Position numbers and translations under genes: made by a program. Below the pieces are notes generated by a model that did no database searches, had not been told where the DNA came from, and saw only the letters and a list, made by a program, of their open reading frames with translations. This document shows, one piece after another, positions 31,712 through 46,571 of a stretch of 64,000 nucleotides of DNA. This DNA comes from Nocardioides ganghwensis (lineage in GTDB: Bacteria > Actinomycetota > Actinomycetes > Propionibacteriales > Nocardioidaceae). The stretch covers positions 248,001-312,000 of the forward strand of contig NZ_JACXYX010000002.1 in the NCBI RefSeq assembly GCF_014779655.1, written 5' to 3'. How positions within the stretch are numbered: the first letter of the stretch is position 1; the number at the start of each line of letters is the position of its first letter.

Positions 31712-33424
31712 ATGGGCTCCGACACCCTCATCAATGCGACCTGGCTGGACTACCTGCTGGTCGCGATCTACTTCGGCTTCGTCCTCGGCATCGGGGTGAT
31801 GGCGCGGCGGTCGGTCTCGGACTCGATCGACTTCTTCCTCTCCGGCCGCTCACTGCCGGCGTGGGTGACCGGTCTGGCGTTCATCTCCGCCAACCTCGGT
31901 GCGGTCGAGATCATGGGCATGTCCGCCAACGGCGCCCAGCTCGGCCTGCCGACCTTCCACTACTTCTGGGTCGGTGCCGTCCCGGCGATGCTCTTCCTCG
32001 GCGTCGTGATGATGCCGTTCTACTACGGCTCCAAGGTGCGCTCGGTGCCGGAGTTCATGTTCCGCCGGTTCGGCACCGGAGCCCACCTGGTCAACGCCAT
32101 CAGCTTCGCGGTCGCCCAGCTGCTGATCGCCGGCGTCAACCTCGCCCTCCTCGCCGGCATCGTGCGCGCCCTGCTGGGCTGGCCGATCTGGGTCTCGCTC
32201 ATCGTCGCCGGGGCGGTGGTGCTGTCGTACATCACGCTGGGCGGACTGAGCGCGGCGATCTACAACGAGGTGCTGCAGTTCTTCGTCATCGTCGCCTCCC
32301 TGCTCCCGCTGACCCTCATCGGCCTGAACCGCGTCGGGGGCTGGGACGGCCTGACCGAGAAGATCAGCGCCGCCTCGGCGGGCGCGTCCTCGTCGTCCGA
32401 CGCGCCACCGGCCGAGCAACAGCTGAACGCCTGGCCGGGCGAGGCGCTCTCCGGCTTCGACTCCCCGCTCCTGTCGGTGATCGGCATCGTCTTCGGCCTG
32501 GGCTTCGTGCTGTCCTTCGGCTACTGGACGACCAACTTCGTCGAGGTCCAGCGGGCGATGGCCTCCGACTCCATCTCCGCCGCGAGGAAGACGCCGATCA
32601 TCGGCGCCTTCCCCAAGATGTTCGTGCCCTTCATCGTGATCGTGCCCGGCATGATCTCCGCCGTCCTGGTCGCGGAGATGATCGAGCTCAAGGACGGCGG
32701 CAGTCCCGCGGGCGGGGCCTCCGGCGACGTGACCTACAACGACGCCCTGCTCCTGCTGATGCGCGACGTCCTGCCCAACGGCCTCCTCGGCCTCGCGATC
32801 GCCGGCCTCCTCGCGGCCTTCATGGCCGGCATGGCGGCCAACATCTCCGCCTTCAACACGGTGTTCTCCTACGACCTGTGGCAGCGCTACATCCGCAAGG
32901 ACCACTCCGACGACTACTACCTGCGGATCGGCCGGCTGGCCACCGTGGGGGCGACGGTCATCGCGATCTTCACCGCCCAGATCGCGCTCGGCTACGACAA
33001 CGTCATGAACTACCTCCAGACGCTGTTCGGGTTCTTCAACGCCCCGCTCTTCGCGACGTTCATCCTCGGCATGTTCTGGAAGCGGATGACCCCGACGGCC
33101 GGCTGGGTGGGCCTGGTGGCGGGCACGCTGTCGGCCATCGCCGTCGACCGCGCCGCCGCGGCCGGCGTCTTCGAGCTGTCCGGGCAGGGGGTGGCGTTCC
33201 TCGCGGCGTCGGTCGCCTTCGTGGTCGACATCGTGCTGAGCATCGTGGTGTCGCTCGTGACCAAGCCCAAGCCCGCCGAGGAGCTCCGGGGCCTGGTCTA
33301 CTCCGAGACGCCCCGCGAGGACCGCACCGACCCGAACGAGGCGTCGTACCCGTGGTACCGGCGCACTGCACCGCTCGCCGGCATCGCGCTCGCGATGGTC
33401 ATCGTCCTCAACTTCGCCTTCTGA
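31712..33424 (+). CDS. Sodium:solute symporter (SSS family)
   Basis: 570 residues, about 13 membrane segments. Family features include the N-terminal YFLLAIYFGFVLG-like first helix, FFLSGRSLPAWVTGLAFISA, which is the conserved SSS start, and the gating-region sequence AGLLAAFMAGMAANISAFNT. A Ser/Ala-rich loop near residues 228-243 is unusual but harmless. GGGAGG precedes the ATG. It is the first gene of the purine island and probably imports urate, allantoin or another purine breakdown product with sodium; the substrate is inferred only from position. Confidence 0.9.
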   Translation: MGSDTLINATWLDYLLVAIYFGFVLGIGVMARRSVSDSIDFFLSGRSLPAWVTGLAFISANLGAVEIMGMSANGAQLGLPTFHYFWVGAVPAMLFLGVVMMPFYYGSKVRSVPEFMFRRFGTGAHLVNAISFAVAQLLIAGVNLALLAGIVRALLGWPIWVSLIVAGAVVLSYITLGGLSAAIYNEVLQFFVIVASLLPLTLIGLNRVGGWDGLTEKISAASAGASSSSDAPPAEQQLNAWPGEALSGFDSPLLSVIGIVFGLGFVLSFGYWTTNFVEVQRAMASDSISAARKTPIIGAFPKMFVPFIVIVPGMISAVLVAEMIELKDGGSPAGGASGDVTYNDALLLLMRDVLPNGLLGLAIAGLLAAFMAGMAANISAFNTVFSYDLWQRYIRKDHSDDYYLRIGRLATVGATVIAIFTAQIALGYDNVMNYLQTLFGFFNAPLFATFILGMFWKRMTPTAGWVGLVAGTLSAIAVDRAAAAGVFELSGQGVAFLAASVAFVVDIVLSIVVSLVTKPKPAEELRGLVYSETPREDRTDPNEASYPWYRRTAPLAGIALAMVIVLNFAF

Positions 33425-33435
33425 GAGGGGCCAGC

Positions 33436-33750
33436 ATGTCCACGACGACGTCCGAGACCGACGGCAGGCCCAAGAAGGCCGGCCTCTTCGACATCCGCAA
33501 CATCATCGGTGCCCTGATGGCGCTGTACGGCGTGATCCTCGCGCTGGCCGGCCTGTTCGGCGAGCACGAGCCGGAGAAGACCGGCGGGGTGAACGCCAAC
33601 CTCTGGACCGGCGTGGCCCTGCTCGCGGTGGGGCTGGGGTTCTTCGCGTGGGCGAAGATCCGGCCGATCGTCGTACCTCCCGACGTGGACCGCCCCGACG
33701 ACGACCCGACGCGCCCGGCGCCCCAGCGCAAGAGGCCGCCCGCGCACTGA
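33436..33750 (+). CDS. Small membrane protein linked to the symporter
   Basis: 104 residues, starting 11 bases after the symporter stop. An N-terminal hydrophilic stretch (KKAGLFDIRNIIG), two membrane segments (IIGALMALYGVILALAGLFG and LWTGVALLAVGLGFFAWAKI) and a Pro/Asp/Arg-rich tail follow. It may be an accessory subunit of the symporter, comparable to small partner proteins in other SSS operons. No catalytic motif. GAGAGGGG precedes the ATG. Confidence 0.75.
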   Translation: MSTTTSETDGRPKKAGLFDIRNIIGALMALYGVILALAGLFGEHEPEKTGGVNANLWTGVALLAVGLGFFAWAKIRPIVVPPDVDRPDDDPTRPAPQRKRPPAH

Positions 33751-33771: not shown

Positions 33772-35040
33772 ATGCAACGTCGCGAGCGCCTCGACCGCCT
33801 GGTGGGCGAGCTCACCGACGACCTCGACGCGCGGCTCGCCGCGGTCGACGACGCGCTGGCCGCGAACTACCCCGGTGAGCGCCCCGGGCGCCAGCCCGTG
33901 CACACGCTGTACGTCCCGGCCGACCGCTTCCACGCCGACCTCGTGGCCGAGCACGGGGCCGCCGCGCTGGCCGCCGTCGACGCCCACGAGGACCTGCTCC
34001 TCGGGGTCCTCGACGACGACCGGGGCCTGCTCGCCCGGGTCCGCGACAAGCTCACCCGCGAGCCCGTCGAGGACCTGCGCATCGACCTCGAGGACGGCTA
34101 CGGCACGCGTGCCGACGACGAGGAGGACCACGACGCCGAGCGCGCCGCGGCCGAGCTGCGCTCCGCGATCGACGCCGGCACGGCGCCCTCCTTCACCGGC
34201 ATCCGGGTCAAGGGCTTCGAGGCTCCGACCCGCCGCCGCGGCGTACGCACCCTGACCCTGTTCCTCGCCCGTCTCGTCGCGGACGGCCCGCTGCCCGGCG
34301 GGTTCGTCGTGACGCTGCCCAAGGTGACGGCGGTGGAGCAGGTCGAGGCGCTGGTGCACGCGGCCGGCCGGCTCGAGGCGGCGCTCGGGCTCGACGCGGG
34401 TGCACTGCGCTTCGAGATCCAGGTCGAGACCCCGCAGTCCATCCTCGGCCCCGACGGCACCGCGCTCGTGGCTCGGATGGTCCACGCCTCCGACGGCCGC
34501 TGCACGGGCCTGCACTACGGCACCTACGACTACTCCGCCTCCTGCGGGATCGCGGCCGCCCACCAGAGCCTCGAGCACCCGGTCGCCGACCACGCCAAGG
34601 CCGTCATGCAGGCCGCGGCGGCGGGCACGGGCGTACGCCTCTCCGACGGCTCGACCAACGTGCTCCCGGTCGGCGAGCCCGACCAGGTCGCGGCTGCGTG
34701 GCACAACCACCTCCGGCTGGTCCGCCGGTCGCTCGAGCGCGGCTACTACCAGGGCTGGGACCTGCACCCCGCGCAGCTCCCGACCCGCTACGCCGCCACG
34801 TTCGCGTTCTACCGCGACGGCTTCCCGGCCGCGGCGGCGCGGCTGCGCGCCTACCTCGGTCAGCAGAACTCCGCGATCCTCGACGAGCCCGCGACCGCCC
34901 GCGCGCTCGCCGACTTCGTGCTGCGCGGCCTCGACTGCGGCGCCGTCTCGCCGGACGAGGTCAAGGACGCCGGGCTGCTCGACATCCACGCGCTGGCCGG
35001 GCTGGCCCACCGCACCAGCGACACCGACGAAGAGGACTGA
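33772..35040 (+). CDS. DUF6986 protein, CitE/HpcH-like aldolase or lyase fold
   Basis: 422 residues, cytoplasmic. The core resembles the CitE/HpcH/malyl-CoA-lyase TIM barrel: LRIDLEDGYG (compare the DLEDAV motif), VTLPKVTAVEQVEALV, the metal-ligand-like FEIQVETPQSIL and YGTYDYSASCGIAAAHQ. The C-terminus YYQGWDLHPAQLPTRYAATF is specific to the family. It lies one base before uricase and must be co-translated with the urate pathway. No reaction is established that I know of. A role in handling glyoxylate or a ureido intermediate is inference from fold and position. Confidence 0.75.
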   Translation: MQRRERLDRLVGELTDDLDARLAAVDDALAANYPGERPGRQPVHTLYVPADRFHADLVAEHGAAALAAVDAHEDLLLGVLDDDRGLLARVRDKLTREPVEDLRIDLEDGYGTRADDEEDHDAERAAAELRSAIDAGTAPSFTGIRVKGFEAPTRRRGVRTLTLFLARLVADGPLPGGFVVTLPKVTAVEQVEALVHAAGRLEAALGLDAGALRFEIQVETPQSILGPDGTALVARMVHASDGRCTGLHYGTYDYSASCGIAAAHQSLEHPVADHAKAVMQAAAAGTGVRLSDGSTNVLPVGEPDQVAAAWHNHLRLVRRSLERGYYQGWDLHPAQLPTRYAATFAFYRDGFPAAAARLRAYLGQQNSAILDEPATARALADFVLRGLDCGAVSPDEVKDAGLLDIHALAGLAHRTSDTDEED

Positions 35041-35041
35041 G

Positions 35042-35902
35042 ATGGGGATCGTGCTGGGACCGAACCGCTACGGCAAGGCGGAGTCGCGGGTCGTACGCAT
35101 CGTGCGCGACACCGCGCGCCACGAGATCCGCGACCTAAACGTCTCGACGGCGCTCCACGGCGACTTCGCCGCAGCGCACACCGACGGCGACCAGTCGCAG
35201 GTCCTGCCCACCGACACCCAGAAGAACACGGCCTTCGCCTACGCCAAGAAGCACGGCGTCGCCTCGCCCGAGGACTACGCGATCGCCCTCGGAGGTCGGC
35301 TCCTCGAGGCCACTCCCGCCGCCCGGGGTGCGTCAGTGAAGGTCGAGGAGTACGCCTGGGACCGCATCGAGGTCGACGGGCGGGGCCACGACCACTCGTT
35401 CGTGCGGCGAGGGGGTGAGGTCCGCCTCGCCAGGGTCGACGTGGAGCGCGACCGCACCGAGGTCCGCGCCGGGCTCGAGGACCTCGTGGTGCTGAAGTCC
35501 ACCGGCTCGGAGTTCAAGGACTTCCTGCACGACGAGTACACGACGCTCCCCGACGCGGACGACCGCATCCTGGCGACCGCGCTGCGGGCCGAGTGGACCT
35601 ACGCGCGCGTCGACGGGATCGACTGGAACGCGACGTACGCCGACGTGCGGGCGATCATGCTCGCCACCTTCGCCACGACCCACAGCCGGGCCCTCCAGGA
35701 GACTCTCTACGCCATGGGGCGGGCCGTGCTGGAGGCGCATGGCGACATCCAGGCCATCGCCTTCAGGGCCCCCAACAAGCACCACTTCCTCGTCGACCTG
35801 GAGCCCTTCGGCCTCGACAACGCCGGCGAGGTCTTCATCGCCGCCGACCGGCCGTACGGCCTCATCGAGGCGACCGTGGTGCGCGAGGGGGAGCCGTCAT
35901 GA
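35042..35902 (+). CDS. pucL: Urate oxidase (factor-independent urate hydroxylase)
   Basis: 286 residues, cofactor-free oxidation of urate to 5-hydroxyisourate and H2O2. Tandem tunnelling-fold domains. The catalytic Lys in GPNRYGKAESRVVRI, the Thr in LPTDTQKNT and the His-containing PNKHHFLVDL are visible. Full length. The ATG is one base after the preceding stop, and the stop overlaps uraD by 4 bases. The translated frame is open far upstream, but the conserved start fixes the ATG. Confidence 0.96.
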   Translation: MGIVLGPNRYGKAESRVVRIVRDTARHEIRDLNVSTALHGDFAAAHTDGDQSQVLPTDTQKNTAFAYAKKHGVASPEDYAIALGGRLLEATPAARGASVKVEEYAWDRIEVDGRGHDHSFVRRGGEVRLARVDVERDRTEVRAGLEDLVVLKSTGSEFKDFLHDEYTTLPDADDRILATALRAEWTYARVDGIDWNATYADVRAIMLATFATTHSRALQETLYAMGRAVLEAHGDIQAIAFRAPNKHHFLVDLEPFGLDNAGEVFIAADRPYGLIEATVVREGEPS

Positions 35903-36408
35903 GCACGACCACACCGGGACTCGAGGCCTTCAACGAGGCCGACGAGCAGCAGGCCCGCGAGCAGCTGCTCACCTGCCTCGACGCGCCCGGCTGGGCCGAC
36001 CGCGTCCTCGCGGGGCGCCCGTACGCCGACCTCGGCGAGCTCGCGGCCGGCATGGGAGCCGCGGCGGCGACCCTCGACGACGCGGACCTGGAGCAGGCCC
36101 TCGCGCGGCACCCGCGCATCGGCGAGCGCGCCGACGCCGCGAAGCACGACGCGGACCACTCGACCCGCGAGCAGTCGGGCGTGGACGCGTCCGACGCCGA
36201 GCTCGCCCGGCGGCTGGCCGATGGCAACCGGGCCTACGAGGAGCGCTTCGGCCGGGTCTTCATCGTCAGGGCGGCCGGTCGCACCGGACCCGAGATCCTC
36301 GACCACCTCCGGCAGCGCCTCGACAACGATGACGACACCGAGCGCGCGATGACGATCGACCAGCTGACGCAGATCGCGGTCCTGCGCATGAAGGAGGCGT
36401 TGTCCTGA
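35899..36408 (+). CDS. uraD: 2-oxo-4-hydroxy-4-carboxy-5-ureidoimidazoline decarboxylase
   Basis: 169 residues, helical OHCU decarboxylase that converts the product of HIU hydrolase to (S)-allantoin. HPRIGE with the catalytic His, followed by EQSGVD, and FGRVFIVRAAGRTGPEIL match the family. ATGA overlap with uricase and a one-base overlap with uraH show tight coupling. Confidence 0.94.
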   Translation: MSTTTPGLEAFNEADEQQAREQLLTCLDAPGWADRVLAGRPYADLGELAAGMGAAAATLDDADLEQALARHPRIGERADAAKHDADHSTREQSGVDASDAELARRLADGNRAYEERFGRVFIVRAAGRTGPEILDHLRQRLDNDDDTERAMTIDQLTQIAVLRMKEALS

Positions 36409-36740
36409 TGGCCGCCACGACAGCTTCGCTGAGCACCCATGTCCTCGACACGGCGGCGGGCCGGCCCGCCGCCGGCGTCGCGGTCACCCTGGAGACCTCA
36501 GACGGCACGGTCCTCGCCGAGGCGGTCACCGACGCCGACGGCCGGATCGGTGACCTCGCCGCCGACCTGCCAGCGGGCGCGCTGCGGCTGCGCTTCGACA
36601 CCGGCGCCTGGTACGCCGCCCGCGGCGAGGTCACCTTCTATCCCGAGGTGGTGGTGGCCTTCACCCTCTCCGCTGCCGAGCACCACCACGTGCCGCTGCT
36701 GCTGAGCCCCTTCGGCTACTCGACCTACCGGGGAAGCTGA
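36408..36740 (+). CDS. uraH: 5-hydroxyisourate hydrolase (transthyretin-related)
   Basis: 110 residues, beta-sandwich of the transthyretin fold. LSTHVLDTAAGRPAAGVAV at the N-terminus with the active-site His, the middle segment FDTGAWYAARGEVTFYPEV and the C-terminal YSTYRGS signature are all present. Hydrolyses 5-hydroxyisourate to OHCU. It overlaps uraD by one base and is followed 2 bases later by allB. Confidence 0.95.
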   Translation: MAATTASLSTHVLDTAAGRPAAGVAVTLETSDGTVLAEAVTDADGRIGDLAADLPAGALRLRFDTGAWYAARGEVTFYPEVVVAFTLSAAEHHHVPLLLSPFGYSTYRGS

Positions 36741-36742
36741 GC

Positions 36743-38074
36743 GTGACGGACGAGCCCGACATCGTGGTCCGCGCCCGGCGGGCGGTCGTCGGAGGCCGGG
36801 AGCGCCCGGCCGACGTCGGCATCCGCGACGGTCGCGTCGTCGCGGTCACGGCGTACGGCGAGCTCGAGGCGCCCGAGGTCGTGGAGCTGGCCGACGACGA
36901 GGTGCTGCTCCCCGGCCTGGTCGACACCCACGTGCACGTCAACGAGCCCGGCCGCACGGAGTGGGAGGGGTTCGCCAGCGCGACGCGCGCCGCCGCCGCC
37001 GGCGGCGTGACCACGATCGTCGACATGCCGCTCAACAGCATCCCGCCGACCACCACCGTCGCGGCGCTGGAGGAGAAGCGCAACGTGGCCGATGGCCAGG
37101 TCTGGGTGGACGTCGGCTTCTGGGGCGGAGCGGTCCCGGGCAACGTCGGCGACCTCGCCGGACTGGACGAGGCCGGCGTCTTCGGCTTCAAGTGCTTCCT
37201 GCTGGACTCCGGCGTCGAGGAGTTCCCGCACCTCCCGCCGGCCGACTTCGCGGCCGCGATGGCCGAGGTCGCGCGGCTCGGCGCCCTGATGGTCGTGCAC
37301 GCCGAGGACGCCGACGAGGTCGCCGAGTGCGCCCACGGCACGGCCTACCGCGGGTTCCTCGAGAGCCGACCCGACGCGGCGGAGGAGCGGGCGATCGCGC
37401 TCGTCGTCGACACCGCCCGCGCCACCGGCGCCCGCGCCCACGTCGTCCACCTCAGTGCCTCGGGTGCCGTGCCCACCCTGCGTGCCGCCCGCGCCGAGGG
37501 CGTCGACGTGTCGGTCGAGACCTGCCCGCACTACCTGCACTTCGAGGCCGGCTCGATCCCCGACGGCGCCACCGAGCTCAAGTGCTGCCCGCCGATCCGC
37601 GACGCCGACAACCGCGACGCGCTGTGGGCCGCCCTCGGCAGCGGCGACATCGACATGGTCGTCAGCGACCACTCGCCGTGCACCGCCGAGCTCAAGCGCT
37701 CCGAGACCGGCGACTTCGCCGACGCCTGGGGCGGCATCGCCTCCCTCCAGCTCGGCCTGCCGGTCGTCTGGACGTCCGCGCGCGAGCGCGGCGTACCGCT
37801 GGCCGACGTGGTGCGGTGGATGGCGACGGCCCCGGCCCGTCGCGTCGGACTGGCCGGCAAGGGCGAGATCGCCGTCGGCGCCGAGGCGGACCTCTGCGTC
37901 TTCGCCCCGGACGAGGCATGGGTCGTCGACCCCGCCCGGCTGCACCACAAGAACCCCGTCTCGGCCTATGCCGGGCGTACGCTCACGGGCACCGTGCGGG
38001 CCACCTGGCTGCGCGGGCTCCCGGTCGACGTGTCGGCCGGGCCACGGGGTCGGCTGCTGAGGAGACGTGCATGA
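36743..38074 (+). CDS. allB: Allantoinase
   Basis: 443 residues, amidohydrolase superfamily, opens the ring of (S)-allantoin to allantoate. Metal ligands lie in DTHVHVNEPG, the bridging Lys in GFKCFLLDSG, His in VVHAED and VVHLSASG, and Asp in VVSDHSPC. GTG start with a 2-base gap after uraH. The 3' end overlaps the aminohydrolase by 4 bases. Full length. Confidence 0.94.
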   Translation: MTDEPDIVVRARRAVVGGRERPADVGIRDGRVVAVTAYGELEAPEVVELADDEVLLPGLVDTHVHVNEPGRTEWEGFASATRAAAAGGVTTIVDMPLNSIPPTTTVAALEEKRNVADGQVWVDVGFWGGAVPGNVGDLAGLDEAGVFGFKCFLLDSGVEEFPHLPPADFAAAMAEVARLGALMVVHAEDADEVAECAHGTAYRGFLESRPDAAEERAIALVVDTARATGARAHVVHLSASGAVPTLRAARAEGVDVSVETCPHYLHFEAGSIPDGATELKCCPPIRDADNRDALWAALGSGDIDMVVSDHSPCTAELKRSETGDFADAWGGIASLQLGLPVVWTSARERGVPLADVVRWMATAPARRVGLAGKGEIAVGAEADLCVFAPDEAWVVDPARLHHKNPVSAYAGRTLTGTVRATWLRGLPVDVSAGPRGRLLRRRA

Positions 38075-38916
38075 GCTACTGGGTCCCGCGGGGCGGGCTG
38101 GCGGCGCAGACCGACCTGACCACCGGCCAGTCCGGCCGGGCGGTCTTCACCGAGGCGTACGCCGTGATCCCGCGCGGCACCCTCAGCGACATCACCACCA
38201 GCCGGCTGCCGCACTGGGACGACACCCGGCTGTGGGTGATCGCGCGGCCGCTGTCGGGCTTCGCCGAGACGTTCAGCCAGTACGTCGTCGAGGTGGCGGC
38301 GGGCGGCGGGTCGGACCGGCCCGACGACGACCCCGACGCCGAGTCCGTGCTGTTCGTCGTCGACGGGTCCGCCGAGATGCGGATCGGTGGCGCGGACGGG
38401 GGAGGGGCGCACGCGCTGCGCCCCGGGTCGTACGCCTTCCTCCCGCCCGGCACGACCTGGACGCTGCGCAACACCTCCGGCGAGACCGCGACGTTCCACT
38501 GGATCCGCAAGGCCTACGAGCGCGTCGACGGCGTGGAGGTCCCCGAGGCGTTCGTGGTCCACGAGGACGACGTGGCGATCGAGCCGATGCCCGACACCGG
38601 TGGGGCGTGGGGCACGCAGCGCTTCGTCGACCCGCTCGACGTGCGGCACGACATGCACGTCAACATCGTGACCTTCGAGCCCGGCGGCGCGATCCCGTTC
38701 CCGGAGACGCACGTCATGGAGCACGGCCTCTACGTCCTGGAGGGCAAGGCGGTCTACCTGCTCAACCAGGACTGGGTGGAGGTGCAGGAGGGCGACTTCA
38801 TGTGGCTGCGCGCCTTCTGCCCGCAGGCCTGCTACGCCGGGGGACCGGGTCGCTTCCGCTACCTGCTCTACAAGGACGTCAACCGGCACCCGCGGCTGCG
38901 TCCGTACGGCGGCTGA
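38071..38916 (+). CDS. allE: (S)-ureidoglycine aminohydrolase (bicupin)
   Basis: 281 residues, two cupin domains, Mn-dependent release of ammonia from (S)-ureidoglycine to give (S)-ureidoglycolate. The first cupin holds SYAFLPPGTTWTLRN; the second holds EPGGAIPFPETHVMEHGLYV with the metal-binding His and Glu residues, then GDFMWLRAFCPQACYAGG. Last gene of the urate operon. Allantoate amidohydrolase, which makes its substrate, is not in the window. Confidence 0.92.
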   Translation: MSYWVPRGGLAAQTDLTTGQSGRAVFTEAYAVIPRGTLSDITTSRLPHWDDTRLWVIARPLSGFAETFSQYVVEVAAGGGSDRPDDDPDAESVLFVVDGSAEMRIGGADGGGAHALRPGSYAFLPPGTTWTLRNTSGETATFHWIRKAYERVDGVEVPEAFVVHEDDVAIEPMPDTGGAWGTQRFVDPLDVRHDMHVNIVTFEPGGAIPFPETHVMEHGLYVLEGKAVYLLNQDWVEVQEGDFMWLRAFCPQACYAGGPGRFRYLLYKDVNRHPRLRPYGG

Positions 38917-38973: not shown

Positions 38974-39038
38974 GAGAGGTGGCAGGTCGTCGTTCCGCAT
39001 GGACAACCGGCGGCCCGTGACTCCCAACCATGCGAGCG

Positions 39039-39056
39039 CCGGGCACCCCTGCCCGG
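39039..39056 (+). promoter_or_regulatory. Hairpin before the xdhA ribosome-binding site
   Basis: CCGGGCA-CCCC-TGCCCGG, a perfect 7-bp stem ending 5 bases before the GGGGAGG Shine-Dalgarno of xdhA. It might affect translation. It matches no riboswitch class I know. Confidence 0.4.
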
Positions 39057-39071
39057 GCCGAGGGGAGGACC

Positions 39072-40469
39072 GTGGCCGAGCCACAGATCACCGTCAACGG
39101 GCAGCCGCGTCCGCTGGCCGGCGTGCCGGCCCACACCAACGCGCTCGACTTCGTGCGCGGCCTCGGCCTGACCGGGGCCAAGGAAGGCTGCGCCGAGGGG
39201 GAGTGCGGCGCGTGCGCGGTGCTGGTGGCGCGTCCCGACGGGGACGGGAGCCGCTGGGCGCCGGTCAACGCCTGCCTCGTGCCCGCCCTCGCGCTCGACG
39301 GCCAGGAGGTGGTGACCGCCGAGGGTCTCGGCGGCCCCGACGACCTCCACCCGGTCCAAACCGGGCTGGCCGAGGCCGGCGGCTCCCAGTGCGGCTACTG
39401 CACGCCGGGCTTCGTGTGCTCGATGGCAGCCGAGTACTACCGCCCCGACCGGACGCCCGGTCCCGACGGGTTCGACGTCCACGCCATCGGCGGCAACCTG
39501 TGTCGCTGCACCGGCTACCGGCCCATCCGCGACGCTGCCTGCGCCCTAGGTTCCCCGTCGCCGGCCGACCCGCTGGCCGGGCGCCAGGACCGGCCCGCAC
39601 CGCCGCCGGCCCCGACCCGCGTCGACGGCTTCGCCCGCCCGGCCGACCTGGCCGAGGCCCTCGCCCTGCTCGCCGAGCACCCCGACGCGACGGTCCTCGC
39701 CGGCTCCACCGACTGGGGCGTGGAGGCCAACCTCCGCGGCCGGCGGGCGGCGTACGTCGTCGCGGTCGACCGCCTTCCCGAGCTGCGCGACCTCACGACG
39801 GGCGCGGACGGGGTCGAGATCGGCGCCGCCCTCACCCTCAGCGAGGTCGAGGCCGCGCTCGGCGACGACGTGCCGCTGCTCGCGCAGGTGTGGCCGCAGT
39901 TCGCCTCGCGGCTGATCCGCAACGGCGCCACCATCGGCGGCAACGTCGCCACCGCGTCCCCGATCGGCGACCTCGCTCCGGCGCTGCTGGCGCTGGACGC
40001 GCGGCTGGTGCTCGCCTCGGCCGCCGGCGACCGCGAGGTGGCGCTGGCCGGCTTCTTCACCGGCTACCGCGAGACCGTGCTGCGCCCGGCCGAGCTGGTC
40101 CGCGCGGTCCGCGTCCCGACCCCGCTGGCCGCGCACACGACGTTCCGCAAGATCGCCAAGCGCCGCTTCGACGACATCTCGAGCGTGGCCGTCGCGGTCG
40201 CGCTCGACGTGGTCGACGGCACCGTCGCCCGCGCCCGGATCGGCCTGGGCGGCGTCGCGGCCACCCCGGTGCGCGCGCTGGCCACCGAGGCCGCCCTCGA
40301 GGGCAGGCCGTGGGACCTCGACACGGTCGAGGCGGCCTCCGCCGTCCTCGCGGGAGAGGGGACGCCCATCGACGACCAGCGCGCGAGCGCTGCCTACCGC
40401 TCGGCCATGCTGGGCAACGCCCTCAAGGCCTGGTGGGACCAGGCATGGCAGGGAGGAGGGTCCGCATGA
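39072..40469 (+). CDS. xdhA: Xanthine dehydrogenase, FeS/FAD subunit
   Basis: About 465 residues. Plant-type [2Fe-2S] domain GCAEGECGACAVL, a second [2Fe-2S] helical domain GSQCGYCTPGFVCSM and GGNLCRCTGYRPI, then an FAD domain (VLAGSTDWGVEAN, RNGATIGGNVATASPIGD) and its C-terminal part. Transfers electrons from the molybdenum subunit to NAD. The GTG at 39072 has GGGGAGG just upstream at short spacing; an ATG at 39030 is possible but has no ribosome-binding site. Confidence 0.93.
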   Translation: MAEPQITVNGQPRPLAGVPAHTNALDFVRGLGLTGAKEGCAEGECGACAVLVARPDGDGSRWAPVNACLVPALALDGQEVVTAEGLGGPDDLHPVQTGLAEAGGSQCGYCTPGFVCSMAAEYYRPDRTPGPDGFDVHAIGGNLCRCTGYRPIRDAACALGSPSPADPLAGRQDRPAPPPAPTRVDGFARPADLAEALALLAEHPDATVLAGSTDWGVEANLRGRRAAYVVAVDRLPELRDLTTGADGVEIGAALTLSEVEAALGDDVPLLAQVWPQFASRLIRNGATIGGNVATASPIGDLAPALLALDARLVLASAAGDREVALAGFFTGYRETVLRPAELVRAVRVPTPLAAHTTFRKIAKRRFDDISSVAVAVALDVVDGTVARARIGLGGVAATPVRALATEAALEGRPWDLDTVEAASAVLAGEGTPIDDQRASAAYRSAMLGNALKAWWDQAWQGGGSA

Positions 40470-42841
40470 GTGACCTGTCCCGCCGGCCCGACGACGCCGC
40501 GGTCGGTCGCGCGCTGGCCCACGAGAGCGCCGCCCAGCACGTCACCGGCCACGCGCTCTACACCGACGACCTGGTGCACCGCACGCCCCACGTCCTCCAC
40601 GCGCACCCGGTCTGCTCGCCGCACCCGCACGCCCGGGTCACCCGTCTGGACACCTCGCGGGCGCTGGCGGTCGAGGGTGTGGTGCGCGTGCTGACCGCCG
40701 ACGACGTGCCCGGCACCAACGACGCGGGTGTGAAGCACGACGAGCCGCTGTTCCCCGAGATCGTGATGTTCGTCGGGCACGCGGTCTGCTGGGTGCTGGG
40801 GGAGACCCTCGAGGCCGCGCGGCTGGGCGCCGAGGCGGTCGAGGTCGACTACGAGCCGCTCCCCGCGATCGTGTCGCTGACCGAGGCGATCGAGGCAGAG
40901 AGCTTCCAGGGCGGGCAGCCCGTCGTCGCCAGGGGCGACGTCGAGCAGGGCCTCGCGGGCGCGGCCCACGTCTTCAGCGGCGTGACCGAGATGGCCGGAC
41001 AGGAGCACTTCTACCTCGAGACCCACGCCTCGCTCGCGCTGGTCGACGAGGCCGGCCAGGTGTTCGTGCAGAGCAGCACGCAGCACCCGACCGAGACGCA
41101 GGAGATCGTGGCCCACGTGCTCGGCCTCGACAGCCACCACGTCACCGTGCAGTGCCTGAGGATGGGCGGCGGCTTCGGGGGCAAGGAGATGCAGCCGCAC
41201 GGCTTCGCTGCGGTCGCCGCGCTCGGCGCCGTCCTCACCGGCCGGCCGGTCCGGCTCCGGCTCAGCCGCACCCACGACATGACGATGACCGGCAAGCGGC
41301 ACGGCTTCCACGCCCAGTGGAGGGCCGGCTTCGACGACGACGGACGCCTGACGGCGCTCGAGGCGACGTTGACCTCCGACGGCGGCTGGAGCCTCGACCT
41401 CAGCGAGCCCGTGCTCGCGCGGGCGCTGTGCCACGTCGACAACGCCTACTGGATCCCCCACGTGCTCCTCCACGGCCGGGTCGCCCACACCCACAAGACC
41501 TCCCAGACCGCGTTCCGCGGCTTCGGGGGGCCGCAGGGGATGCTGGTGGTCGAGGACGTGCTGGGCCGCTGTGCCCCACTGCTCGGCATCGACCCGGTCG
41601 AGCTGCGCCGCCGCAACTTCTACGTCGAGGGCCAGGCCACTCCCTACGGGCAGGTGGTGCGCCATCCCGAGCGCGTCGCCGCCGCGTGGGACCAGGTGAT
41701 GACGACCGGCGAGGTCGAGCGGCGCCGCAGGGAGATCGCCGCCTTCAACGCCGCCCACGAGCACACCAAGCGTGCCCTGGCGGTGACCCCGGTGAAGTTC
41801 GGCATCTCGTTCAACTTCACCGCGTTCAACCAGGCGGGTGCGCTGGTGCACGTCTACAAGGACGGCTCGGTGCTGATCAACCACGGCGGCACCGAGATGG
41901 GCCAGGGCCTGCACACGAAGATGCTCCAGGTCGCGGCCACCTCCCTCGGCGTACCGCTCGGCAAGGTCCGCCTGGCGCCGACCCGCACCGACAAGGTGCC
42001 CAACACCTCCGCCACCGCAGCGAGCTCGAGCGCCGACCTCAACGGCGGCGCCGTCAAGAACGCCTGCGAGCAGATCCTCTCGCGCCTGCGGCAGGTCGAC
42101 GCGGGGCGCGGCCTGCCGTGGGAGGACCTCGTCCGCGAGGCCTACTTCAGCCGGGTGCAGCTGTGGGCGGCGGGCTTCTACCGGACCGAGGGCATCCACT
42201 GGGACTCCACGGTCATGCGCGGCCACCCGTTCAAGTACTTCGCCTACGGCGTCGCTGCCGCGGAGGTCGAGGTGGACGGCTTCACCGGCGCCTACCGCAC
42301 CCGGCGCGTCGACATCGTCCACGACGTCGGCGACAGCCTCTCCCCGCTCGTCGACCTCGGGCAGGTGGAGGGCGGGTTCGTGCAGGGCGTGGGCTGGCTG
42401 ACGCTGGAGGACCTGCGGTGGGACGAGTCGTCGGGTCCCGGCCGCGGCCGGCTGACCACGCAGGCGGCCAGCACCTACAAGCTCCCGAGCATCGGCGAGC
42501 TGCCCGACGAGCTCAACGTCGCGCTGCTCGAGCACGCCCACGAGGACGGTGTGGTCTACGGCTCCAAGGCCGTCGGCGAGCCGCCGGTCATGCTCGCGTT
42601 CGCGGTCCGCGAGGCGCTGCGCGAGGCGGCCGCGGCCTTCGGGCCGGACGGCACCAGCGTCGACCTCGCCTCCCCGGCCACCCCCGAAGCGGTGTTCTGG
42701 GCGGCCGAGCGCGCGCGGAGCGCCGGGTCCGACCACGTGGTCGAGGGCCTGCCCGGCGCCGTCCCCGACCGGCCCGACCCGACGGCGCCGGCCCTGCACC
42801 CGCGGTCCGAGCAGGCCGACCGCGGCACGGCGGGGGGCTGA
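40466..42841 (+). CDS. xdhB: Xanthine dehydrogenase, molybdenum-binding subunit
   Basis: 791 residues, hydroxylates hypoxanthine and xanthine to urate. Molybdopterin motifs are GQEHFYLETHASLA, MGGGFGGKE, AFRGFGGPQGM and TEMGQGLHTKM; the catalytic Glu lies in KAVGEPPVML near the C-terminus. It starts within the xdhA stop (ATGA). Full length for the XdhB type. Confidence 0.95.
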   Translation: MSDLSRRPDDAAVGRALAHESAAQHVTGHALYTDDLVHRTPHVLHAHPVCSPHPHARVTRLDTSRALAVEGVVRVLTADDVPGTNDAGVKHDEPLFPEIVMFVGHAVCWVLGETLEAARLGAEAVEVDYEPLPAIVSLTEAIEAESFQGGQPVVARGDVEQGLAGAAHVFSGVTEMAGQEHFYLETHASLALVDEAGQVFVQSSTQHPTETQEIVAHVLGLDSHHVTVQCLRMGGGFGGKEMQPHGFAAVAALGAVLTGRPVRLRLSRTHDMTMTGKRHGFHAQWRAGFDDDGRLTALEATLTSDGGWSLDLSEPVLARALCHVDNAYWIPHVLLHGRVAHTHKTSQTAFRGFGGPQGMLVVEDVLGRCAPLLGIDPVELRRRNFYVEGQATPYGQVVRHPERVAAAWDQVMTTGEVERRRREIAAFNAAHEHTKRALAVTPVKFGISFNFTAFNQAGALVHVYKDGSVLINHGGTEMGQGLHTKMLQVAATSLGVPLGKVRLAPTRTDKVPNTSATAASSSADLNGGAVKNACEQILSRLRQVDAGRGLPWEDLVREAYFSRVQLWAAGFYRTEGIHWDSTVMRGHPFKYFAYGVAAAEVEVDGFTGAYRTRRVDIVHDVGDSLSPLVDLGQVEGGFVQGVGWLTLEDLRWDESSGPGRGRLTTQAASTYKLPSIGELPDELNVALLEHAHEDGVVYGSKAVGEPPVMLAFAVREALREAAAAFGPDGTSVDLASPATPEAVFWAAERARSAGSDHVVEGLPGAVPDRPDPTAPALHPRSEQADRGTAGG

Positions 42842-42842
42842 C

Positions 42843-43658
42843 GTGCACTGGCTGGCCGCAGTCGAACGACTCCGCGCGGAGCGGGAGGCGGGCGTGCTCG
42901 TCACCGTCGCCGACGTGCGCGGGCACGCCCCGCGCGACGCCGGCGCCAAGATGGTCGTCGCGGCCGGGCGCTCGTGGGGGAGCGTCGGCGGGGGCAACCT
43001 GGAGGAGACCGCGCTCGTCCGGGCCCGCACGATGCTCGAGGCGTACGCCGTCGCACCCGAGCAGCTCGTCCTCGGGCTGAGCGACAAGGCGCGCACCGAC
43101 CACGGGCGGCAGTGCTGCGGCGGCGAGGTGACGCTCCTGCTCGAGCCGCTGCCCGTCGTCCCGGCGGTCGCGGTCTTCGGGGTGGGCCACGTGGGGCTCG
43201 AGCTGGCCCGCATCCTCTCCGCCCACGACCTCGACCTGCACCTCGTCGACTCGCGCGCCGAGCAGCTCACCGACGAGCGCCTCGCCGTGCTCGAGGCGGG
43301 GACGGCGCGCGTACGCGTGCACCACGCACCGGTGCCCGAGCTCGCGCTCGGATCCGTCCCGCCGGGCACCCACGTGCTGGTGATGACCCACGACCACGCC
43401 GAGGACTTCGCCCTCTGCGACGCCGCGCTGCGCTGCACCCACCTCGCCACGATCGGGCTCATCGGGTCGGACGCCAAGTGGGCACGCTTCCGGTCCGGAC
43501 TGGCGGTCGAGGGGCACGACACGGCACACGTCGACCGGATCAGGTGCCCGATCGGGCTGCCAGGGCTCGACGCCAAGGAGCCGGCCGCGATCGCGGTGTC
43601 GGTCGCGGCGGAGCTGCTCCAGGCGTTCGCCGCCGACCGCTCGCGAGCGAAGGCATGA
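42843..43658 (+). CDS. xdhC: Xanthine dehydrogenase accessory protein
   Basis: 271 residues, cofactor-insertion chaperone that delivers sulfurated molybdenum cofactor to XdhB. The N-terminal XdhC/CoxI domain reads VTVADVRGHAPRDAGAKMVV and SVGGGNLE; the C-terminal Rossmann-like domain reads AVFGVGHVGLELARIL and MTHDHAEDFAL. GTG start one base after the xdhB stop; the 3' end overlaps guaD by 4 bases. Confidence 0.92.
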   Translation: MHWLAAVERLRAEREAGVLVTVADVRGHAPRDAGAKMVVAAGRSWGSVGGGNLEETALVRARTMLEAYAVAPEQLVLGLSDKARTDHGRQCCGGEVTLLLEPLPVVPAVAVFGVGHVGLELARILSAHDLDLHLVDSRAEQLTDERLAVLEAGTARVRVHHAPVPELALGSVPPGTHVLVMTHDHAEDFALCDAALRCTHLATIGLIGSDAKWARFRSGLAVEGHDTAHVDRIRCPIGLPGLDAKEPAAIAVSVAAELLQAFAADRSRAKA

Positions 43659-45025
43659 GCGTCCCGGTCGTCTACCGCGCCCGGGCCTACGACACCCCCG
43701 ACGACCCGTTCGACCCCGCGACCGCCGCCCCCGGCTTCCGCTACGACGACGACCTCGGCCTCGCGGTGTCCGACGACGGGGTGATCGTCATGCGGGGCCC
43801 GTACGCCGCCGTCGCGGCCGCGCACCCGGGCACCCCGGTGCTCGACCTCCGCGCCGGCCTCCTGCTGCCGGGACTCGTGGACACCCACGTGCACTTCCCC
43901 CAGGTGCGCGTCATCGGCGCGCTCGGCATGCCGCTGCTGGAGTGGCTGGAGCGGTGCGCGCTGCCGGAGGAGGTGCACCTCGGGTCGCCCGACTACGCCG
44001 CCACCATCGCCGAGGAGTTCGTCGCGAGCCTCATCGCGGCGGGGACGACCACCTCGCTCGTCTTCGGCTCGCACTTCGCACCGGCGGTCGACCTGCTGCT
44101 CGCGGAGGCGGAGCGCTACGGGCTGCGGGTGACGACCGGGCTGGTCGTCAGCGACCGCATCCTCCCCGAGCCGCTGCTCACCACCCCCGACCGCGCGTAC
44201 GCCGAGGCCCTGGGGCTGGCGAGCCGCTGGCACGGACGCGGCCGGATCCGTTATGCCGTGACGCCGCGCTTCGCGCTGTCCGCCTCCGACCCGGTGCTCG
44301 CGGCCTGCGCCTCCGTGCTGGACGAGGTCGGCGGATCGCTGTTCACCACCCACGTCAACGAGAACTCAGCCGAGGTCGCCACGGTCGCCGGGCAGTTCCC
44401 CCACCGCGACCACTACGTCGACACCTACGACCACCACGGGCTGCTGGGGCCGCTGTCGGTGCTGGCGCACGATGTGCACCCCACCGATGCCGAGCTGGAC
44501 GTGATGGCGGCGCGCCGCACCTCCGTCTCGTGGTGCCCGACGAGCAACTCCGCCCTCGGCTCCGGCATCTTCCCGCTGCGGCGCCACCTCGCGGCGGGCG
44601 TACGGGTCGCGCTCGGCAGCGACGTGGGCGCGGGCACCGGGTTCTCGGTGTTCAAGGAGGGCCTGCAGGCCTACTTCCTCCAGCACCTGCTCGGCGACGA
44701 CGGGATGCCGCTCGGCGCCGGCCACCTGCTGCACCTGAGCACTGCGGCGGGAGCGGCCGCGCTGGGGCTGGCCGACACCGTCGGCGACCTGTCGGAGGGC
44801 AAGCAGTTCGACGCCGTGCTGCTCCGGCCGCCGCCGGGCACGGCGCTCGACCTCGGGCTGCGGCACGCCGACTCCCCGGAGTCGGCGCTCGGCAAGGTGT
44901 TCGCGCTCGCCGGGGACGCCGACGTCGCCGAGGTGTGGGTGGGCGGCGACCAGGTCGCCTCCGGCGGTTTCGTCCGGCCCGTCACTCCCCGCGAGCCAGC
45001 AGCACCTCGTAGGCCTGCAGGGTGA
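43655..45025 (+). CDS. guaD: Guanine deaminase
   Basis: 456 residues, amidohydrolase that turns guanine into xanthine, the substrate of the adjacent dehydrogenase. The zinc-site motif LVDTHVHFPQ is diagnostic for guanine deaminase; THVNENSAEV, LAHDVHPTD and ALGSDVGAGTGFS supply further ligands. ATGA overlap with xdhC. The 3' end runs 44 bases into the convergent malate synthase gene, an unusually long tail-to-tail overlap. Confidence 0.92.
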   Translation: MSVPVVYRARAYDTPDDPFDPATAAPGFRYDDDLGLAVSDDGVIVMRGPYAAVAAAHPGTPVLDLRAGLLLPGLVDTHVHFPQVRVIGALGMPLLEWLERCALPEEVHLGSPDYAATIAEEFVASLIAAGTTTSLVFGSHFAPAVDLLLAEAERYGLRVTTGLVVSDRILPEPLLTTPDRAYAEALGLASRWHGRGRIRYAVTPRFALSASDPVLAACASVLDEVGGSLFTTHVNENSAEVATVAGQFPHRDHYVDTYDHHGLLGPLSVLAHDVHPTDAELDVMAARRTSVSWCPTSNSALGSGIFPLRRHLAAGVRVALGSDVGAGTGFSVFKEGLQAYFLQHLLGDDGMPLGAGHLLHLSTAAGAAALGLADTVGDLSEGKQFDAVLLRPPPGTALDLGLRHADSPESALGKVFALAGDADVAEVWVGGDQVASGGFVRPVTPREPAAPRRPAG

Positions 45026-46571
45026 GGAAGTCCGGGTAGTCGTCCCCGAGCGCGCACCCGACGAACAGGCGTCGCGCGTCGGGGTCGACCGAGCCCAGCG
45101 AGGCCTCCAGCGCCGCGTGCTCCTCGTCGACGAGCCGCTCGACCAGGGCCCGGTCGATCACCTCGCCGGTGTCGAGGGTGGCGCCGGTGTGGACCCACTG
45201 CCAGACCTGCGAGCGGGAGATCTCGGCCGTCGCCGCGTCCTCCATGAGGTTGTCGATGCCCGCCGCGCCGTTGCCGGAGAGCCACGCGTGGAGGTAGTGC
45301 ATGCCGATCCGCACGTTGCCGCGCAGCCCTTGCTCCGTACGCTCCCCGGGCGTGCGGTCCACGGCGAGGAGGTCGGCCGCGGTGACGGCGACGTCCTCGC
45401 GGCGTACGTCGAGCTGGTTGTCCCGGGGGCCGAGGACGCCGTCGAACACCTCGGCGCACAGCGGGACGAGGTCCGGGTGGGCCACCCACGAGCCGTCGAA
45501 GCCGGCGGTCGCCTCGCGCGTCTTGTCCTCGCGCACCTTGGCGAAGGCGCGCTCGTTGACCTCGGGGTCGCGCCGGCTCGGGATGAAGGCCGCCATGCCG
45601 CCGATGGCGAAGGCGCCGCGGCGGTGGCAGGTCTGCACGAGCAGGTCGCTGTAGGCCCGCATCATCGGGGCCGCCATCGTCACCGCGTTGCGGTCGGGGA
45701 GGGTGAAGTCCGCCCCGGCGTCGCGGAAGTTCTTGATGATGCTGAAGAGGTAGTCCCAGCGGCCCGCGTTGAGCCCGGCCGCGTGGTCGCGCAGCTCGTG
45801 GAGGATCTCGTCCATCTCGAAGGCCGCGGTGATCGTCTCGATCAGCACGGTCGCCCTGATCGCGCCGTGGGGGAGCCCCAAGGTGGCCTCGGCGTGGGTG
45901 AACACCTCGTCCCACAACCGCGCCTCGAGGTGCGACTCCATCTTGGGCAGGTAGTAGAAGGGCCCGCGCCCCTGCTCGTGCAGCTCGCGGCCGTTGTGGA
46001 AGACGTGGAGCCCGAAGTCGACGAGCGCCGCGACCACGGGCCGCCCCTCCCGGGTCAGGTGCGCCTCGTCGAAGTGCCAGCCGCGCGGACGGGGCAGGAC
46101 CACCGGTGCGGTGGCCGGGTCGGCGACGGCGTACTCCCGGCCGTCGGGCGAGGTGAACGCCAGGCACCCGCGGGTGGCGTCGCGCAGGGTGAGCTGGCCC
46201 CCGACGACGTTGCGCCAGTGGGGAGTGTTGGCGTCCTCGAGGTCGGCCAGCCACACCCGGGCGCCGGAGTTGAGGGCGTTGATCGCCATCTTGGGGTCGG
46301 TCGGGCCGGTGATCTCCACCCGCCGGTCGCGGAGCGCCTCCGGCACCGGCGCCACGGTCCAGTCGCCCGCGCGGACCGCGGCCGTCCCGGGGAGGAAGTC
46401 GAGGGTGGCCGTCCGGGCGACCTCCGCCCGGCGGTCCCGGCGCGCGGCCAGCAGCTCGTCACGGCGTACGTGGAAGCGCTCGTCGAGGTCGGCGACGAAG
46501 GCGAGCGCCTCGGTCGTGAGGACCTCGTCGGACCGGTGGACGGACGGGGCGGAGACGACGAGCTCGGTCAT
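44982..46571 (-). CDS. aceB: Malate synthase A
   Basis: 529 residues, condenses glyoxylate with acetyl-CoA to malate. TDPKMAINALNSGARVWLAD, the catalytic-region VLIETITAAFEMDEIL, GRWDYLFSIIKNF and the C-terminal domain ending with a loading-region HAALEASLG are all typical of the A isoform. No isocitrate lyase is adjacent; placed against the purine island it would consume glyoxylate from ureidoglycolate. A TAGCGT box 6 bases before the ATG indicates its own leaderless promoter. Confidence 0.94.
   Translation of the reverse strand: MTELVVSAPSVHRSDEVLTTEALAFVADLDERFHVRRDELLAARRDRRAEVARTATLDFLPGTAAVRAGDWTVAPVPEALRDRRVEITGPTDPKMAINALNSGARVWLADLEDANTPHWRNVVGGQLTLRDATRGCLAFTSPDGREYAVADPATAPVVLPRPRGWHFDEAHLTREGRPVVAALVDFGLHVFHNGRELHEQGRGPFYYLPKMESHLEARLWDEVFTHAEATLGLPHGAIRATVLIETITAAFEMDEILHELRDHAAGLNAGRWDYLFSIIKNFRDAGADFTLPDRNAVTMAAPMMRAYSDLLVQTCHRRGAFAIGGMAAFIPSRRDPEVNERAFAKVREDKTREATAGFDGSWVAHPDLVPLCAEVFDGVLGPRDNQLDVRREDVAVTAADLLAVDRTPGERTEQGLRGNVRIGMHYLHAWLSGNGAAGIDNLMEDAATAEISRSQVWQWVHTGATLDTGEVIDRALVERLVDEEHAALEASLGSVDPDARRLFVGCALGDDYPDFLTLQAYEVLLARGE

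Follow-up and report, generated by a model that had tools for sequence, protein, structure and literature searches.

A CitE-like DUF6986 protein of actinobacterial ureide gene clusters as a probable ureidoglycolate lyase

A window of 64,000 nucleotides from Nocardioides ganghwensis (NCBI RefSeq assembly GCF_014779655.1, contig NZ_JACXYX010000002.1, positions 248,001 to 312,000 of the forward strand) contains, among genes for urate breakdown, a gene for a protein of the DUF6986 family at window positions 33772-35040. Annotation sources call this family one of unknown function or an 'aldolase/citrate lyase family protein'. It is proposed here that the protein is probably a Mg2+-dependent ureidoglycolate lyase, which would convert (S)-ureidoglycolate into glyoxylate and urea, the reaction of EC 4.3.2.3; we infer activity, substrate, products, metal and mechanism from residue conservation, gene context and co-occurrence, all of which are observed, and from a predicted fold.

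The DUF6986 gene and its operon

The open reading frame at 33772-35040 on the forward strand, named in a first-pass annotation of the window, is real, with an ATG start and a product of 422 residues that displays the motifs DLEDGYG, VETPQ and YDYSAS pointed out there. The protein matches PF22484 at 574.5 bits (Pfam cut-off 27), which places it firmly in the family, and PF03328 (HpcH/HpaI aldolase/citrate lyase) marginally at 27.4 bits (cut-off 25); the Pfam search returned these two matches and not PF04115, the AllA-type ureidoglycolate lyase family. Against the malyl-CoA lyase equivalog NF041626 it scores 20.6 bits, far short of the cut-off of 500. The genes surrounding DUF6986 are the following.

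31712..33424, + strand, SSS-family sodium/solute symporter, with which the operon possibly starts (TIGR00813, 236.8 bits)
33436..33750, + strand, small protein of 104 residues between symporter and DUF6986 (open reading frame and gaps)
33772..35040, + strand, DUF6986 protein, proposed ureidoglycolate lyase with a predicted CitE/malyl-CoA lyase fold (PF22484, 574.5 bits; predicted model)
35042..35902, + strand, uricase (TIGR03383, 338.4 bits)
35899..36408, + strand, OHCU decarboxylase (TIGR03180, 161.2 bits)
36408..36740, + strand, 5-hydroxyisourate (HIU) hydrolase (TIGR02962, 120.1 bits)
36743..38074, + strand, allantoinase AllB (TIGR03178, 571.9 bits)
38071..38916, + strand, bicupin (S)-ureidoglycine aminohydrolase (UGlyAH), perhaps also acting on allantoate (NF008373, 485.8 bits; NF040771, 469.9 bits; TIGR03214, 293.1 bits; all over cut-off)
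39030..40469, + strand, xanthine dehydrogenase 2Fe-2S/FAD subunit (XdhA), start codon uncertain (PF00941, PF03450, PF01799)
40466..42841, + strand, xanthine dehydrogenase molybdopterin subunit (XdhB) (PF20256, PF02738)
42843..43658, + strand, XdhC accessory protein (PF13478, PF02625)
43655..45025, + strand, guanine-deaminase-like amidohydrolase (PF01979; the gene after xdhC in the Tsukamurella plasmid L129 is annotated guaD)
44982..46571, - strand, malate synthase A, convergent, likely glyoxylate sink (PF01274, 346.4 bits)

The DUF6986 stop codon ends at 35040 and the uricase ATG begins at 35042, which leaves the gap of a single base described before. DUF6986 had also been regarded as the first gene of the operon, which it probably is not, as the SSS symporter and the 104-residue gene lie upstream on the same strand with gaps of 11 and 21 bases; this pair (31712-33750) is a possible urate or allantoin importer. 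A gene of 103 residues occupies the small-protein position also in locus L031, and an SSS homologue is found upstream in the Nocardioides loci L031-L033.

The pathway in the window had been described as lacking both an allantoate amidohydrolase and a ureidoglycolate-cleaving enzyme. The first absence may be only apparent: the window cupin (38071-38916) scores 470 bits against NCBIfam NF040771 (AAH_UGLYAH2, 'bifunctional allantoicase/(S)-ureidoglycine aminohydrolase'), over its cut-off of 350, so that one of the two gaps may be removed. By sequence, the bicupin is predicted to make the proposed DUF6986 substrate and perhaps to act on allantoate as well. Three (G008, G288, G456) of the 15 cupin-type genomes in the class draw described below are without an M20 hydrolase of the TIGR01879 kind, which fits such a double role on allantoate and ureidoglycine, and 12 have one. 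The second absence holds in the window genome for PF04115 and AllD.

Predicted fold and active-site residues

Relatives were collected in several ways. The named loci are the best 80 of 589 candidates, the nearest relatives of the window protein and all Actinobacteria by their titles. A phylum sample comprises 296 genomes, with DUF6986 counted as full-length over 370 bits, and a class draw comprises 236 genomes, which partly overlap the phylum sample and were searched at stricter thresholds (E 1e-30, 1e-15, 1e-25) that can miss fragments. Alignment A1 holds 24 of the 25 full-length phylum loci, with L022 (internal stop) left out, and alignment A2 the window protein and 57 of the 80 named loci.

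The structure was predicted from 58 aligned sequences with a mean predicted local distance difference test score (pLDDT) of 92.3 and a predicted template modelling score (pTM) of 0.88. The confidently predicted model is a triosephosphate isomerase (TIM) barrel with a C-terminal lid of the malyl-CoA lyase type, as is characteristic of the CitE-like superfamily. Malyl-CoA lyase, with which a comparison had been suggested, comes out as the top structural match (4l9y_A; Z 27.5 over 291 residues, root-mean-square deviation 2.7), followed by human CLYBL (Z 26.9), Haloferax malate synthase (Z about 25) and malate synthase A (Z 23.9). The 50 matches shown include malyl-CoA, citramalyl-CoA and citrate lyases and malate synthases, and no amidohydrolases. 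A search of solved structures with the family profile found malyl-CoA lyases at 6e-5 and 2e-4; the same search started from the single protein yielded nothing beyond chance (best E 0.58) and was discarded.

Residues common to the superfamily are listed in a published study as Glu44, Asp45, Arg76, Glu141, Asp168, Asp42 (Asn in one lyase group) and the lid residue Asp299, replaced by Glu in one subgroup (Rhodobacter sphaeroides numbering; PMC3832036). Upon MAFFT alignment and profile comparison with three CitE-like relatives, the first six align with E107, D108, R145, E219, D253 and D105 of DUF6986. The conservation figures refer to 170 distinct sequences of the family, with 177 hmmsearch rows passing E 1e-60. 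D105, E107, D108, R145, E219, H248 and D253 are invariant in all 170; D330 (169, one gapped) and D371 (168, two gapped) are never substituted, E372 is Glu in 166 and Asp in 2 with two gapped, K147 is Lys in 165 and position 252 is Tyr or Phe throughout. Judged by sequence, the family thus retains the metal- and substrate-binding residues of the superfamily, namely the Mg ligands, the Arg and the Asp-Glu-Asp set. The lid acid may be either of two neighbours, as both aligners place E372 at the Asp299 position and the motif DEPAT, compared with DEAS, suggests D371. At the positions of H248 and D330 the aligned CitE-like proteins have other residues, and these two are candidates for handling a urea group. 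Putative catalytic residues are consequently D105, E107, D108, R145, E219, D253 and the lid acid D371 or E372, together with the family-specific H248, D330 and K147.

Co-occurrence with ureidoglycolate producers and gene neighbourhoods

The distribution of the family was compared with that of the enzymes that produce ureidoglycolate, a producer being defined as allantoicase or UGlyAH. In the class draw, DUF6986 is found in 82, allantoicase in 70 and UGlyAH in 15 of the 236 genomes, with the two producers never together. A producer accompanies DUF6986 in 81 of the 82 genomes (allantoicase 66, UGlyAH 15) and occurs in 4 of the 154 genomes without DUF6986 (Fisher p 4e-57, a descriptive value only, as related genomes are not independent); counted by genus, the figures are 34 of 34 with and 1 of 66 without DUF6986. 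The single exception, G422, has its contig cut inside the HIU hydrolase gene beside DUF6986, and the missing producer is read as an assembly gap, though this is unproven. Within Nocardioides (13 genomes of the class draw), DUF6986 and the cupin are both present in 2 and both absent in 11. In another genome (G442), the DUF6986 match falls into two pieces (L119:7781-9273), possibly by a frame break or an assembly error.

The phylum sample gives the same picture. PF22484 matches 113 of the 296 genomes at E 0.001, 100 of them over the cut-off, and DUF6986 is full-length in 25; the remaining matches (at most 55.5 bits) are read as CitE relatives and one fragment (G013, in two pieces at a contig end). 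Each of the 25 full-length genomes carries a single kind of producer, allantoicase in 21 and, with scores over the cut-off, UGlyAH in 4 (TIGR03214, searched in 45 genomes, matches 25 at E 0.001, of which 4 pass the cut-off and the others reach at most 28 bits); the 20 genomes that have uricase but lack full-length DUF6986 contain neither producer. An association of DUF6986 with uricase itself was considered and rejected: uricase occurs in 43 of the 296 genomes, in 23 of the 25 with full-length DUF6986 and in 20 of the 271 others, which leaves 20 uricase genomes without DUF6986 and 2 full-length DUF6986 genomes without uricase. As these two still have a producer, the gene follows ureidoglycolate and not urate. 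Equally, linkage in an inherited operon alone does not explain the association, since many pairs are distant or split: among the 81 class genomes with both genes, DUF6986 and the producer lie less than 20 kb apart in 46, 24 kb apart in 1, more than 500 kb apart on the same contig in 11 and on different contigs in 23.

Known ureidoglycolate-cleaving enzymes are rare in the same genomes. PF04115 is found in only 3 of the 82 class DUF6986 genomes (1 of 12 and 2 of 70), with marginal scores of 26.5-32.9 bits, and AllD passes its cut-off in none of the 78 genomes examined, 74 of which have DUF6986; both were therefore dismissed as hidden alternatives. At E 1e-30, 23 of the 74 DUF6986 genomes are without any match to the TIGR01879 M20 hydrolases. 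Most of the sampled actinobacteria with DUF6986 thus show no known ureidoglycolate-cleaving enzyme. The survey proposed together with the first-pass annotation, which would have spoken against a role in this step if complete ureidoglycolate enzymes accompanied the gene in all genomes, came out in the opposite direction, with producers tracking DUF6986, PF04115 nearly absent and AllD never over cut-off. In a published work on the genome of Arthrobacter sp. Rue61a, growth on allantoin, also as sole nitrogen source, is reported and the genes from allantoate to glyoxylate 'were not obvious' (PMC3534580).

The calls in the gene neighbourhoods rest on tblastn or on an own gene caller with clustering, and several loci end within the flank. 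Of the 80 named loci, 35 contain malate synthase A, which in 34 is the immediate upstream neighbour of DUF6986 (gap below 30 bases in 30), and UGlyAH is directly downstream in 36 (gap below 30 bases in 33). A common order is a divergent IclR regulator, malic enzyme, malate synthase, DUF6986 and UGlyAH; other arrangements are allantoinase-allantoicase-malate synthase-DUF6986 (L059), allantoinase-allantoicase-DUF6986 (L079) and DUF6986-Hyi-GlxR-Gcl-allantoinase-UGlyAH without a malate synthase or malic enzyme gene close by (L074). Among glyoxylate routes near DUF6986 in the named loci, malate synthase is counted in 35, carboligase in 16 and both in 7. None of six urate/ureide genes is near in 18 of the 80, and 14 of these 18 belong to Streptomyces, Kitasatospora or Amycolatopsis. 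Among 67 further stretches, taken from the phylum sample and the class draw, 45 have a producer near DUF6986 (allantoicase 32, UGlyAH 13).

The clearest arrangement is seen in two genomes of 1.5 Mb (G462, G480), in which malate synthase, AllB, allantoicase and DUF6986 follow each other on one strand with 4-bp overlaps among the last three, preceded by malic enzyme in G462 and with an NCS1 permease beside the row. Neither PF04115 nor TIGR01879 was found in the two genomes. The route from allantoin to malate is complete here but for one reaction and DUF6986 is the only unassigned protein of the row, which by elimination argues for DUF6986 as the enzyme of this step. In a Gordonia plasmid, DUF6986 precedes a complete urease operon ureABCFGD with a gap of 143 bases, and in G409, with a DUF6986 protein 71% identical to that of the plasmid, it adjoins ureA-ureC-ureG; in this one lineage, the adjacency of urease points to urea as a product.

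Other neighbours were observed as well. Small genes (79-92 and 124-145 residues) follow DUF6986 in Kribbella and Leekyejoonella (L038:11290-11896, L041, L057, L058, L105); the pair in L038 has no NCBIfam match. On a conjugative Paenarthrobacter plasmid (L128; NZ_CP068014.1 177933-195036), a divergent DUF6986 gene lies between a polysaccharide-deacetylase-type gene and an NCS1 symporter, a segment that is perhaps a mobile allantoin module.

A quick tree was built from 67 rows (the window protein, 20 of the 25 phylum loci, 41 of the 80 named loci, 2 plasmid loci and 3 CitE-like outgroups). With 49 of the rows labelled by producer, a minimum of two label changes is required, one of them forced by well-supported branches. 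The producing enzyme has thus been exchanged at least once while DUF6986 stayed.

Proposed reaction, alternatives and relation to known enzymes

Ureidoglycolate is the intermediate common to the allantoicase and the cupin routes, and glyoxylate is common to the malate synthase and the carboligase routes. As DUF6986 is found in all combinations of these routes, it most likely joins ureidoglycolate to glyoxylate. Ureidoglycolate, HO-CH(COO-)-NH-CO-NH2, is the aza-analogue of a malyl thioester, HO-CH(COO-)-CH2-CO-SCoA (CoA, coenzyme A), so that its cleavage could copy the chemistry of malyl-CoA lyase. (S)-Ureidoglycolate would be supplied by allantoicase or the cupin UGlyAH. E219 and D253 would bind Mg2+, which would hold the carboxylate and the hydroxyl group of the glyoxylate half, with E107 and D108 positioning the metal waters and R145, held by D105, stabilising the developing carbonyl. 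A base would take the hydroxyl proton, upon which the C-N bond would break, and the leaving urea might be protonated by the lid residue D371 or E372, probably of the neighbouring subunit, or by the family-specific H248 or D330. The glyoxylate would then feed either malate synthase and malic enzyme or the carboligase pathway, and the urea would go to urease where that enzyme is present.

A wider evolutionary reading, favoured with less confidence than the reaction itself, holds that a C-C lyase scaffold became a CoA-independent C-N lyase by way of this aza-analogue, with the binding of the glyoxylate half unchanged and urea, as an aza-enolate, leaving in place of the enolate of acetyl-CoA, and that DUF6986 is the general ureidoglycolate-cleaving enzyme of the Actinomycetota, kept through the exchange of allantoicase and cupin.

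Several observations weigh against the lyase reading. Four class genomes have allantoicase with neither DUF6986 nor PF04115, which indicates that allantoicase users can exist without DUF6986, by another enzyme or by spontaneous decay. In one of these (G310), no DUF6986 lies beside allantoicase and the contig ends soon after; the other three (G074, G038, G429; L114-L118) are of one genus and combine allantoicase with a racemase-like protein (cluster 19; the same-position gene in Tsukamurella is annotated as aspartate/glutamate racemase family) and an NCS1 permease, with a PuuE-type allantoinase (TIGR03212, 513.6 bits) and urease nearby in L114. AllD-like proteins, far below cut-off, occur in 17 of the 78 genomes examined, M20 (TIGR01879) homologues occur in 52 of the 78, and the window genome itself has one M20-type hydantoinase/carbamoylase homologue on another contig, unlinked to DUF6986; M20 hydrolases are an unlikely general answer to the ureidoglycolate step and a possible one in single genomes. 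Only 6 of the 67 further stretches have malate synthase A in the vicinity of DUF6986. Adjacency to urease is rare, with Gordonia and G409 as close relatives to be counted once, and in L079 and L149 the urease genes belong to another part of the cluster and do not adjoin DUF6986. Furthermore, by the Cahn-Ingold-Prelog rules (S)-ureidoglycolate has the arrangement of an (R)-malyl unit, so that binding must differ from that in malyl-CoA lyase, and the lid position that serves CoA chemistry still carries an acid, which makes a CoA-dependent reaction possible.

Of the alternatives, the best placed, though an improbable one, is that the protein works as a CitE-type malate synthase like that of Haloferax, forming malate from glyoxylate and acetyl-CoA, with ureidoglycolate cleaved otherwise or decaying. 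It agrees with the structural matches to Haloferax malate synthase and malate synthase A and with the retained metal-site residues and Arg of the superfamily. It would also fit the bulky Tyr or Phe at position 252, before the Mg-ligand Asp, where the aligned malyl-CoA lyases have Ala; an Ala of malyl-CoA lyases is reported to be replaced by Leu454 in malate synthase G (PMC3832036), and position 252 would be its equivalent. What keeps this alternative alive is a group of loci that would agree with malate formation by DUF6986: in six named loci malic enzyme lies immediately ahead of DUF6986 and the examined flank contains no malate synthase, the same pair occurs without malate synthase in 4 of the 67 further stretches (L172, L175, L183, L190), and in L043:3584-6346 (+ strand), from a Lapillicoccus metagenome-assembled genome, an N-terminal malic enzyme is fused to DUF6986 in a protein of 920 residues. 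On the other hand, a second malate synthase would be redundant beside the canonical malate synthase A of the 35 named loci and of the G462/G480 gene row, L074 has DUF6986 ahead of a carboligase route with neither enzyme of malate metabolism near, the urease neighbours are not explained and the ureidoglycolate step would be left empty. The earlier suggestion of a lyase or aldolase that either releases or captures glyoxylate is accordingly narrowed: with malate synthase A directly upstream of DUF6986 in so many named loci, release is favoured over capture.

Less likely again, DUF6986 might act on glyoxylate or urea after spontaneous cleavage, in another aldol or Claisen reaction or in glyoxylate detoxification. 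Ureidoglycolate is chemically unstable, which favours this possibility, and the one genus that manages with allantoicase alone fits it; DUF6986 is, however, kept whatever the nearby glyoxylate route, whereas an enzyme that works downstream of glyoxylate should keep to a single route. The least probable alternative, that DUF6986 cleaves ureidoglycolate hydrolytically or otherwise with products other than urea (for example glyoxylate, ammonia and carbon dioxide), draws equal support for its substrate from co-occurrence and elimination, but meets the lack of amidohydrolases among the 50 structure matches and the urease genes that adjoin DUF6986 on the Gordonia plasmid and in the closely related G409.

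Ureidoglycolate lyase thus remains the preferred assignment for DUF6986. Both the reaction and the superfamily are known; their combination is absent from the annotation sources examined. In a literature search without subscription journals, no paper was found to name DUF6986 or, judged by title and the start of the abstract, to assign a CitE-like protein to ureidoglycolate. With the proposal, a Pfam family so far without an assigned function, present in 82 of the 236 sampled class genomes, receives an identity that can be tested. If true, allantoin breakdown in these bacteria would have its last step without an enzyme filled by one unrelated to those known for the ureidoglycolate lyase reaction, with a C-C lyase fold turned to C-N cleavage, and metabolic reconstructions of soil actinobacteria and of the two reduced 1.5-Mb genomes would close.

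Compared with known systems, DUF6986 stands closest to the malyl-CoA lyase and CitE-like proteins (4l9y, 4l80 and CLYBL 5vxc; Z 26.9-27.5), with which the predicted model has in common the TIM barrel with C-terminal lid and the sequence the Mg ligands, the Arg and the water-binding Asp-Glu-Asp. It differs from them by an identity of only 17-20%, an N-terminal helix (2-32), extra helices within 57-96 between the first two strands, H248, D330, mostly K147, an aromatic residue before the Mg-ligand Asp and the context of ureide breakdown. The Haloferax-type malate synthases (3oyx, 3pug) have the same CitE-like barrel at about 15% identity, 3oyx being described in its title with glyoxylate and Mg bound; DUF6986, unlike these, adjoins a malate synthase A in many loci. 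The M20 ureidoglycolate/allantoate amidohydrolases (TIGR01879) occupy the same position in the pathway, but the DUF6986 protein has no match to them. The AllA-type ureidoglycolate lyase has a different, cupin-like fold. With this enzyme (PF04115), DUF6986 would share the reaction, while the two have no sequence match and rarely co-occur.

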